Of a stretch of 49,668 bases of DNA, positions 27,615-30,417 are shown piece by piece. Location of the stretch: contig CANEVR010000012.1 of the NCBI GenBank assembly GCA_947442505.1, positions 1 to 49,668 on the forward strand, in the 5' to 3' direction. Position numbers and translations under genes: made by a program. The DNA is from Flavobacteriales bacterium (GTDB lineage Bacteria > Bacteroidota > Bacteroidia > Flavobacteriales_D > Sanyastnellaceae). The notes under the pieces are model-generated. The model made no database searches and was not told where the DNA came from. It saw only the letters and a list, made by a program, of their open reading frames with translations. Every line of letters begins with the position of its first letter. Position 1 is the first letter of the stretch.

Positions 27615-29192
27615 TTAATTCAAACCAAACACCACACAGGCATAATAAAACAATGCGCCCATCGCAGCAGAAATAGGAATGGTGATAATCCAAGCGGTAA
27701 GAAGTTTTCCGGTCACTCCCCATTTCACGGCACTAATTCTTTTAGTAACACCTACGCCAATAATCGATCCCGTAATTGTATGGGTTGTTGAAACCGGAAT
27801 ACCCTTGATGACTTCACCACCAATCTTCCATGGGAACTTCATTCCCTCTGTAAAGAACAAAGTTACCGCACCTGCAGTCTCTGCAGCCACTCCTTCAAAA
27901 GGAGTCACCTTAGTGATTTTGTTACCCATGGTTTTTACAATCTTCCAACCGCCACTCATTGTACCAATCGAGATGGCAGCATAGCAAGCCAAGGGAACCC
28001 AGGTGGGCATTTCCTTCATGGATGTAATATTTCCGCTGGCAATTAACGCAACCGTAATAATACCCATCACCTTTTGGGCATCATTTCCACCATGACCAAC
28101 TGAGAAAGCTGCTGACGAAAAAAGTTGCAACCTCTTAAACCAATGATTGGCTCTTGAATTATTCAAAGAACTCAAGAATAAGGTAAAGACAGCCATCACG
28201 ACCATAATAAATCCAAGCAAAAGCCATTTGAAATTATTGCCATGAAAAACAACCTTTAGCCAATAGGTTTCGAAATCGGCCTTTAGATTTGAGCTATCAT
28301 AACGCTCCTTAGCATCAGCTTCAGGGCCAATTTTGTGACTGTCAACAATCGCAAAAGATGTCTTGATTTTCTTTTGAATATTCTTCTCTATCGCTTTGGT
28401 CAAATCTGAGCTCACAGACATTTCCCCAACCTTCTGCATGTAGTCAGTTCTAACAACATAAATACGACCAGACTTATCTTCCGCACCCGCTTTAACCACT
28501 GCAGAATACTCTTTCAGATCTTCATCTTTGAATTTCAATGACGCCTTCAACTCTTCTATATCCACTTTTTCATTGAAAGAAATGGTGTAAGAATGCGATC
28601 CATTAAAATCCTTTTTGAATTCTAATGCACCCCACACCAAATAGCATGTACCTGCTATGATGGCAAGGGAGACCATTTTCATCCAAGGTCCTTTGCGAAA
28701 AGAATTCAAGAACCATATGGAAATCAAATAGGCCATGATCATTCCTGCTACTGGAGCTACGACAATAAAGATAGCTGTGGCTCCGACAACACCTCCTCTC
28801 ACTGCTTCCCAACCGAAAGCAGCCAAGAAAGCACCGGCAAAACCTCCAATCAACGTATGGGAGGAGGAGGAGGGAATACCGTACCACCATGTAATCAAAT
28901 TCCAAGCGATGGCGGACAATAAACCCGCAAAAATCATAGGCAATGGGTGGCGATCAGGCTGGGTAAATTCATCTTGAACAGTCTTGGCAATGGTGTTGGC
29001 AACACTGTGATCTTTAAAAATGAAGAAAGCGACAAAATTGAAAAATGCTGCCCAAACGACGGCCTGAAAAGGAGTTAGTACCTTGGTAGAAACTACCGTA
29101 GCTATAGAATTGGCCGCATCGTGGAATCCATTGATAAAATCGAAAATCAATGCCAAAGCAATGATGACGATGAGGAAAGTTGAATACTCCAT
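27615..29192 (-). CDS. pit: PiT-family inorganic phosphate transporter with a soluble inserted domain
   Basis: A 525-residue permease. NGFHDAANSIATVV (21-34) and VGHGGNDAQKVMG (365-377) are the duplicated PiT signatures, and PSSSHTLIGG and STTHTITGS are the paired conserved loops. It imports phosphate with H+ or Na+. Between two membrane blocks lies a soluble segment, about residues 191-322, much longer than a loop. Its DFNGSHSYTISF start and SHKIGPEADAK near the end recall the extracytoplasmic head of SecD/SecF (inference only). Six bases upstream lies the DUF47/PhoU-like partner gene, the usual pairing for this transporter. Confidence 0.92.
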   Translation of the reverse strand: MEYSTFLIVIIALALIFDFINGFHDAANSIATVVSTKVLTPFQAVVWAAFFNFVAFFIFKDHSVANTIAKTVQDEFTQPDRHPLPMIFAGLLSAIAWNLITWWYGIPSSSSHTLIGGFAGAFLAAFGWEAVRGGVVGATAIFIVVAPVAGMIMAYLISIWFLNSFRKGPWMKMVSLAIIAGTCYLVWGALEFKKDFNGSHSYTISFNEKVDIEELKASLKFKDEDLKEYSAVVKAGAEDKSGRIYVVRTDYMQKVGEMSVSSDLTKAIEKNIQKKIKTSFAIVDSHKIGPEADAKERYDSSNLKADFETYWLKVVFHGNNFKWLLLGFIMVVMAVFTLFLSSLNNSRANHWFKRLQLFSSAAFSVGHGGNDAQKVMGIITVALIASGNITSMKEMPTWVPLACYAAISIGTMSGGWKIVKTMGNKITKVTPFEGVAAETAGAVTLFFTEGMKFPWKIGGEVIKGIPVSTTHTITGSIIGVGVTKRISAVKWGVTGKLLTAWIITIPISAAMGALFYYACVVFGLN

Positions 29193-29198
29193 CTTGGA

Positions 29199-29846
29199 TT
29201 AAGAATTTTTGACCAATATACTTTCTAAAACATTAGCGACATCTTCGCACTTATCAGTTGCTGTCTCCAAGCCACTCAATACTTCCTTTTGCTTCATCAA
29301 TACCAAGGCGTTATCTTGTTCAGCAAACAACCGAGCAATGGCTTCATCAAAAATATCATCTGCATGATTTTCCAGAGAATTGATCCGAACTATAGCATCT
29401 CTAACACGCTGCGCATTGCGCATGTTGCGCAAATCGCAGATAGCCGAATCAATTTCCATCACCTGCTTCAATAACACCTCACTCATCAATTCCATGGACT
29501 TGCTGAACTCGGTCACCCCATACAATTGAACACGTGAAGCGCAACCATGAATGTAATCGGCGACATCATCAATACTGGTGGCCAAAGCATGGATATCTTC
29601 ACGATCAAAAGGCGTGATAAAATTGTCAGCCAATTCTAAAAAGATCTGATGAGTGATCTCATCTCCTTTGTGCTCGAAATCCCTAATCTCGCGAATGATA
29701 TTGCCCAATTCATTCTTGTCTGACGTCAAAAATAATTGATTAAATCTCTTGGATTGCTCCACTAGATTGGCTGTATCTTTTGCAAACAGGTCAAAGAATA
29801 ATGCATTCTTAGAAACCATAAAAGAGAAAAGTGAACTCAATTTCAT
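29199..29846 (-). CDS. DUF47 (PhoU-like) partner of the phosphate transporter
   Basis: A 215-residue all-helical protein. ALFFDLFAKDTANLVEQSKRF, IRDFEHKGDEITHQIF, REDIHALATSIDDVADYIHG and the DKCEDVANVLE ending match DUF47 (PF01865), which resembles PhoU and binds metal through Glu/Asp-rich helices. Such proteins are encoded next to PiT transporters and are thought to regulate or assist them. Here the stop is six bases before the pit start, so the two form an operon transcribed from the 253-base divergent region shared with the ArsR-type gene. Confidence 0.92.
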   Translation of the reverse strand: MKLSSLFSFMVSKNALFFDLFAKDTANLVEQSKRFNQLFLTSDKNELGNIIREIRDFEHKGDEITHQIFLELADNFITPFDREDIHALATSIDDVADYIHGCASRVQLYGVTEFSKSMELMSEVLLKQVMEIDSAICDLRNMRNAQRVRDAIVRINSLENHADDIFDEAIARLFAEQDNALVLMKQKEVLSGLETATDKCEDVANVLESILVKNS

Positions 29847-30099
29847 TATATCTGTTTTTTACAAAAGAAAGCTCAATATGTTACAGCTACGTTAAGGAAA
29901 GATTGTTTTTAGCGCAATTCAATTGCATTGACAAGAAAACTAACCCATGCATGCATTCAAGCGCGTTTATGGCGAAAAACACTTCTTCTATTTGTTAAAA
30001 TGCAATGAACGCCTCAGGATGGATTATAATCATTGCTCAAACGAATTCATAAAACTTCCATAACATTCAATTCATATCCGAGAACGGAATTTGCATTTG
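29847..30099. promoter_or_regulatory. Divergent promoter/operator region between DUF47-pit and the ArsR-type gene
   Basis: A 253-base AT-rich gap with no ORF I can support. It holds two palindromes that could bind a dimeric regulator: GCAATTCAATTGC (29914-29926) and ATGCATGCAT (29947-29956). I found no exact TAnnTTTG box for the DUF47 gene; TTCTTTTG has one mismatch. Confidence 0.5.
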
Positions 30100-30417
30100 A
30101 TGAATGTTGCACAATTACAGAATGAGTCCTTTGCCCTTTTGGCTAACCTATCCAAATCGATAGGCCACCCAACAAGACTTCAAATTTTGAAGTCACTATG
30201 TGATCACGGTGGAACCATTGAAGGAGAAATTGTGGCAATACCCAATACGGCGCCCTCGACTGTTATTCAACATTTGAGAGAATTAAAAAGAGCTGGATTG
30301 ATTAAGGGAAGGATTTTCGGTGCTCAATGTAAATACAGTTTGAATGACGAAACACTCGTTGTCTTTAAAAATTTATGGGAAGAAATTATTCTTCCACTCC
30401 AATCAAACACCAAATAA
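30100..30417 (+). CDS. ArsR-family winged-helix transcriptional regulator
   Basis: A 105-residue protein from ATG 30100 (MNVAQLQNESFALLANLSKSIG); a TTG three codons earlier is less likely. KSIGHPTRLQILKSLCDHGGTIEGEIV then PSTVIQHLRELKRAGLIKGRIFGAQCKYSLN is the ArsR winged helix-turn-helix, with the recognition helix at TVIQHLRELK and the wing at GRIFGAQCKYSL. It lacks the CxC metal motif of classic ArsR, so it may sense something other than a metal. Its placement divergent from the phosphate transporter genes suggests it could control them, but this is only positional. Confidence 0.88.
   Translation: MNVAQLQNESFALLANLSKSIGHPTRLQILKSLCDHGGTIEGEIVAIPNTAPSTVIQHLRELKRAGLIKGRIFGAQCKYSLNDETLVVFKNLWEEIILPLQSNTK

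Follow-up and report, generated by a model that had tools for sequence, protein, structure and literature searches.

The protein export motor SecDF contains a periplasmic domain of SecF known as P4, which is described in passages of PMC8277102 as a classic β-α-β-β-α-β porter domain and which, in the same passages, forms one eight-stranded sheet with the P1-base in SecDF. The residues of SecF that take part in the proton relay are named in part of PMC8669966. In the PiT (SLC20) family of phosphate transporters, internal as well as extracellular termini have been proposed for the human proteins PiT1 and PiT2, and the loop of their extra transmembrane (TM) pair is called extracellular in parts of PMC3126765. 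In that paper human PiT2 without its large intracellular domain is reported to retain full transport, and very low transport is reported for the form that lacks the extra TM pair as well.

In the current analysis we have identified a PiT transporter that carries, between two of its TM helices, an insert which on sequence grounds is a homologue of this SecF domain, P4. It is encoded in the window, i.e. the whole stretch of 49,668 nucleotides of a Flavobacteriales bacterium that was analysed. The best explanation, to which we assign a probability of about 0.8, is that an intact PiT symporter has acquired a copy of SecF P4 as an accessory periplasmic module, possibly one that pairs through the edge of its sheet. 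The features of the locus are collected in Table 1.

Table 1. Features of the headed PiT locus, given as nucleotide positions of the window
Feature	Position	Strand	Basis
PiT/PHO4 phosphate transporter, 525 aa, 12 TM-like helices, SecF P4-like insert	27615..29192	(-)	reading frame, Pfam PHO4, structural model
C-terminal PiT signature region GHGGNDAQKVMG, residues 366-377, intact	28062..28097	(-)	invariant in 35 aligned PiTs
TM7, residues 318-340, PiT-native linker helix after the head	28173..28241	(-)	model; kept in head-less relatives
PiT-native segment between the head and TM7, residues 299-317	28242..28298	(-)	counterpart also in head-less PiTs
SecF P4-like head, K193-Y298, 106 aa, predicted ferredoxin-like β-α-β-β-α-β	28299..28616	(-)	borders from head-less relatives; homology; fold
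TM6, residues 169-189, PiT-native linker helix before the head	28626..28688	(-)	model; kept in head-less relatives
Presumed N-terminal PiT signature region GFHDAANS, residues 22-29, intact	29106..29129	(-)	no variation at residues 22-28 and almost none at 29 among 35 aligned PiTs
DUF47/PhoU-like gene, directly upstream of PiT, same strand	29199..29846	(-)	Pfam PhoU_div, E 2.5e-26

The Pfam family PHO4 (PF01384) has been assigned to residues 21-512 of the window protein (E-value 1.9e-91; 307.1 bits against a gathering score of 33.7). A model of the full-length protein, built from an alignment of 35 rows (pLDDT 79), has as its best structural match the PiT of PDB entry 6L85 (Z 37.8, rmsd 3.8, 370 of 400 residues), and the predicted fold is thus that of a solved PiT. 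On both comparisons the PiT core is intact. The region GFHDAANS is what we take to be the N-terminal signature of the family, and the GHGGNDAQKVMG region is the counterpart of the C-terminal family signature described in part of PMC3126765. Since the transporter core is intact, the window protein is probably a phosphate importer and not a translocase. DUF47/PhoU-like genes are the usual partners of PiT genes, and the one situated next to the PiT gene in the window probably constitutes an operon with it. An ArsR-type regulator gene (window 30091-30417, + strand) is located upstream of this pair in divergent orientation.

A preliminary description of this locus had placed a soluble insert at residues 191-322 of the protein (28227-28622), and the motifs that it quoted are all found there in the quoted order. 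The insert is indeed present; its true extent, as delimited by head-less relatives, is the shorter stretch of residues 193-298, with residues 299-317 and TM7 being PiT's own. Both the linker helices are retained in the head-less relatives, mostly with a short loop of the form LE(F/T)-D...LK, and the inserted piece, referred to here as the head, is therefore K193-Y298, lying between LEF192 and D299. A PiT without head (L132) shares 88.5% identity with a headed one (L008) over 418 aligned residues, interrupted by a single gap of 113 residues. In L016, L017 and L018 the TM6-TM7 helix pair is absent altogether. An extra segment is seen in L018, L019, L020 and L021 in another PiT loop, which follows the C-terminal signature near window residue 388-393. 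Loop L7 of E. coli PitA is unusually long according to part of PMC3126765 and may be the same loop.

The SecF model of NCBI, TIGR00966, matches the whole window protein at residues 170-291 with an E-value of 8.8e-7 (28.7 bits; profile positions 10-117 of 279), and the insert by itself with an E-value of 1.4e-4. The NCBI SecDF model matches the window protein at 2.6e-5, and like TIGR00966 it does so far below its whole-protein cut-off. At 28.7 bits the window protein lies well under the 160 bits that the curated cut-off of TIGR00966 demands of a SecF protein. Both the models match 12/12 PiT sequences scanned over residues 165-420 (the window PiT and 11 relatives) at E ≤ 0.01, and three full-length relatives match TIGR00966 at just 5.6e-5 to 1.2e-4. 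The match to SecF stops at profile position 117 of 279 and the remainder of the window protein is PHO4, so that the SecF TM region with the arginine of the proton relay is absent, as is a SecD partner; the likeness is limited to the P4 domain and is not that of a working translocase.

A profile of 14 PiT heads, when aligned with a profile of 10 SecF heads (hhalign), gave a probability of 98.5 and an E-value of 2.4e-15 over 99 columns in colinear order. The controls comprised 200 column shuffles of the SecF profile, which reached at most 6.5 in probability, the reversed SecF profile (0.2) and other windows of SecDF, which gave at most 0.5 save for three that overlap the SecF head. This comparison is a favoured one because 9 of the 10 SecDF rows had been picked for their resemblance to the window PiT. 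The curated TIGR00966 is free of that selection, and so is the SecDF of the same genome, found by means of TIGR00966, which the head profile matches at 1.5e-10. No SecD/SecF family of Pfam was found on the window protein at E ≤ 10, and the Sec_GG motif of Pfam was seen in one of the 12 PiT sequences, with an E-value of 0.054 at best. A profile search of PDB sequences with the insert retrieved SecDF P4 at an E-value of 0.86 only; CDK5RAP2, which came up at 0.31 in another search of PDB sequences with the insert, is not significant and has been judged a chance match. The head profile fails to reach most of the SecF proteins from other classes of the phylum, and the likeness is therefore to SecDF of near lineages.

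The preliminary description had likened the insert to the heads of SecF and SecD alike, and it is the SecF part of the proposal that stands. No likeness to SecD was seen, with 120-column windows over the SecD part of SecDF, as far as its columns are filled by three rows or more (all but the extreme N-terminus), giving probabilities of at most 0.5, and on these windows SecD P1 is an unlikely source of the head. The head alone has been modelled, from an alignment of five rows, as β-α-β-β-α-β with a mean pLDDT of 65. Foldseek gave nothing at E ≤ 1e-3 for this model and listed SecDF 13th with a probability of 1.00; VIA-align placed two SecDF entries on top with Z-scores of 8.4 and 8.3, the best unrelated ferredoxin-like domains scoring 7.4. 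With the full-length model, 6L85 was followed by three SecDF entries over residues 193-300 (Z 7.9, 7.6 and 7.0), an HMA domain being tied at 7.0. The β-α-β-β-α-β fold of SecDF P4 is what the model of the head gives, with moderate model confidence. Both profile and structural similarity to the SecF head have been obtained, and neither a generic loop nor a PAS-like fold was encountered. The predicted fold supports the SecF result yet would not prove it, and is not decisive.

A survey of PiTs for the insert, as had been suggested earlier, reveals it in a restricted set of genomes. PHO4 is present above cut-off in 32 of the 114 genomes of the window's family. The head profile together with the frames read shows that 21 of these encode a headed PiT and nine a head-less one (two without the helix pair), the others being a fragment in G075 and a different PiT in G102. 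The PiT of G102 (L117), which is 715 residues long, belongs to a different type, and its long extension at the C-terminus resembles, by eye, a fused PhoU/DUF47 domain. Among 399 genomes of the order, 80 have any match to the head profile at E ≤ 1e-3, and headed PiT frames occur only in the same 21 genomes, all of the window's family and distributed over 5 genera. Matches in other genes score at most 44.7 bits, as against at least 100 bits for the first head of each PiT, and are mostly located in frames of SecDF length; those inspected, a subset, are SecDF except for L239, in which no SecF match was found on inspection. In a sample of 395 genomes of the phylum seven matched the head profile, and the sole headed PiT was the window's own. 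In 395 genomes of the class, five matched at E ≤ 1e-12, namely the window's own and four with PiT frames, from four other families. The class sample thus overturns the view that the head is confined to one family: the SecF-type head in PiTs is rare, but it is not restricted to a single family.

Other domains have been identified in the same TM6-TM7 loop. Among the best 80 PiT loci the loop carries a SecF-type head in 4, a PDZ-like domain in 7, another insert in 1 (L042) and is short in 68; these counts describe the best 80 matches and are not frequencies, and 10 of the 68 short loops were judged by frame length, as the landmark motif varies. The PDZ-like inserts, among the matches listed, belong to PiTs of other Bacteroidota (L051, L056, L063, L067, L078, L096 and L116). 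PDZ_2 was matched in all six of the proteins scanned, L078 having been left out on account of ambiguous bases, with E-values of 0.0027 to 8e-10 and three of the six above cut-off. Two SecF-type heads are present in the PiT loop of L134, L137 and L145 (genomes G069, G065 and G064). In L134 the first head is interrupted by the second after helix 2 and ahead of strand 4 (profile positions 92 and 94), and L145 can be read in the same manner. The head of SecD P1 is described as spliced after helix 2 in two passages of PMC8277102 and between strands 2 and 3 in another, and since these passages disagree the parallel with the double heads is tentative. L042 (3533-5071) has a stretch of 139 residues in the loop, whereas L244, the PiT nearest to it by core, bears a head of SecF type. 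The L042 insert gave no match to SecF or to the PiT head; scans of the protein returned only transporter families and DUF4229 (E 0.046, under cut-off). Because relatives carry other domains, two copies or nothing at this place, the TM6-TM7 loop appears to be a site where attached modules can be exchanged, the transporter being ordinary in other respects.

In the last head tree 23 PiT heads form one clade (100/100) on a long branch, and SecDF heads from the window's family group with this clade (99/97). That tree leaves out L216, L179 and L206, which have long branches, as well as L194 (= L027) and L039 (= L243), and the double heads were excluded from both head trees. An earlier head tree with other rows again has the heads as one clade and does not resolve their grouping with SecDF of the family. 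As the 23 heads form one clade, a single capture of the head is likely; the donor was probably SecDF of the same lineage, a placement that depends on sampling, the tree being without SecDF of the four other families. On the first core tree the presence of the head requires three changes, most simply one gain and two losses, and five changes when four extra genomes are included. The core trees, of 62 and 58 rows, contain only some of the short-loop PiTs, exclude the loop columns and do not settle the root. PDZ in the loop requires 4 or 5 changes on the core trees. The heads of L244 and L245 nest among those of the family and their cores do not, a pattern that hints, with modest support, at exchange of the head between PiTs. 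The C-terminal half of L039 alone groups with head-less PiTs and its whole core with headed ones; it is possibly a mosaic gene. The record of L092 is titled Streptomyces griseus, its PiT clusters with Chitinophagaceae, and the label of this MAG seems to be mistaken.

Within genus g1 the head shows 50-96% identity to that of the window and the core 91-98%. The values of omega are 0.09-0.18 for heads as against 0.02-0.04 for cores, both being computable in 4 of 28 pairs, some of them with high dS; the head is under constraint, which is looser than that on the core. The G+C content of the head (0.381), the core (0.432) and the window (0.413) decides nothing.

If all 12 long helices of the model cross the membrane, the six loops that face one side of it carry a net charge of +8 and those that face the side of the head -1 (the head itself excluded), and by the positive-inside rule the head would lie outside the membrane. 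Charge counts and homologues together make the periplasm its most likely location; this location is one that we infer, as are the loss events and the accessory role of the head. The outer loop between the linker helices TM6 and TM7 would accordingly to this proposal have received a copy of the periplasmic P4 of SecF, the PiT core would carry out phosphate transport, and the head would serve as an accessory periplasmic module outside the translocation path and not as a protein translocase. The free edge of its four-stranded sheet may pair with another such domain, as P4 does with the P1-base in SecDF. A second PiT subunit could provide the partner with its own head, or, in the double-headed relatives, the other head could do so, and the paired heads might form a docking or gating cap above the outer face of the transporter. 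The mechanism that we propose is thus that of an accessory periplasmic module acting through protein contact. Head-head pairing is the version of it that we hold most likely, though taken by itself it is possible rather than probable; P4 shares a sheet with the P1-base in SecDF, and in double-headed PiTs a single polypeptide would again contain both members of such a pair. The occurrence of PDZ and P4 at the same site points to protein-protein contact outside the membrane. Given a complete core and the existence of sisters that have no head, the fold does not require the head, which is probably dispensable for phosphate transport as well; the linker helices may matter, because human PiT2 without the extra TM pair transports very little. 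The window PiT, then, probably imports phosphate and bears on its periplasmic side a swappable module for docking or regulation; it is probably not a translocase.

A more direct part of the head in substrate handling, as a periplasmic phosphate trap or a gate at the mouth of the transporter, is unlikely. There are 12 invariant columns among 14 heads, five at the start and five at the end adjoining the membrane (PiT flank accounts for four of these ten, namely L3, E4, N115 and L116), which makes a coupling of the head to the core possible, and the window insert has 17 lysines and a net charge of +1. The heads are in general neutral to acidic, however, with net charges of -8 to 0 in 20 trimmed heads, and are unsuited to trap an anion, for which reason an anion-trapping head has been set aside; moreover, head-less PiTs exist beside headed ones. 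The natural pairing of P4 with the P1-base (passages of PMC8277102) and the interaction site for SecF on YidC (part of PMC8669966) would favour a head that ties PiT to the Sec system by pairing with SecD P1-base or with YidC. This we consider highly improbable, as in nine genomes the PiT head was found to be just 19-29% identical to the SecF head encoded alongside it in that genome, and none of the scanned neighbours of PiT (DUF47, ArsR-type, acyltransferase) belongs to Sec. That the captured head still recognises its old partners, the importer docking on SecDF/YidC through a mixed P4/P1-base sheet, is a long shot; if true, phosphate uptake would be physically linked to protein export.

With regard to the origin of the head, it is very unlikely that TM6, head and TM7 were imported together from SecF as TM1-P4-TM2. 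The match to the SecF model does begin in TM6, and when the TM helices are included the profile alignment extends into TM1, with 115 columns in place of 99. On the other hand this alignment ends before TM2, the same two helices are found in head-less PiTs across Bacteroidota, and 58 head-less linkers have no SecF likeness (probability 0.8). An insert that is an unrelated ferredoxin-like or loop domain, its likeness to SecF being convergence on a common fold, would agree with the weak separation of SecDF P4 from other ferredoxin-like domains in the fold scores. The best Pfam match to the insert alone, ribosome recycling factor (E 0.0031, below cut-off), could be cited in its favour as well, though we have judged it a chance match and not a relative. 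We give convergence hardly any credence, since the sequence also points to SecF, in 12/12 PiT sequences and in the colinear 99-column profile alignment, and neither the shuffles nor the SecDF windows missing the SecF head give a comparable score.

The occurrence of an export-motor domain in an unrelated nutrient transporter shows that the porter fold is able to pass from one carrier to another of unrelated type. A single loop that is occupied by one SecF head or two, by PDZ or by some other domain, along with a natural head-less sister at 88.5% identity outside the insert, provides a comparison set for periplasmic modules, and protein contact at this loop would bear on how PiT carriers are organised or regulated.

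No report of a SecF or PDZ domain in a PiT came up in the literature searched, which lacks most subscription journals; PiT and SecF P4 are each known already, and it is their union and the swappable loop that were not found there. The whole transporter core is shared with the T. maritima PiT of 6L85 (Z 37.8), a protein of 402 residues that would be too short for the core and such a head. According to parts of PMC3126765, the core halves of human PiT2 (SLC20A2) are likewise separated by an extra TM pair, whose loop, L5, is extracellular. This pair may be equivalent in position to TM6-TM7, but the large extra domain of PiT2 comes after the pair and is located inside the cell. The six PDZ-bearing PiTs that were scanned have the same transporter and the same TM6-TM7 loop with an unrelated domain inserted. 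With P4 of SecDF (PDB 2RRN, 5XAN, 5XAP and 5YHF) the head shares homologous sequence, the β-α-β-β-α-β order, a position between two TM helices and, as it would appear for PiT, the periplasmic side, whereas the PiT chain is without TM2-6 of SecF, SecD or a P1 partner. PiT is not named in the covered parts of the porter-domain review (PMC8277102), which describe the porter (PD) domains of RND and MacB/FtsX transporters as modules of the same standard PD fold, reused across several transporter families.
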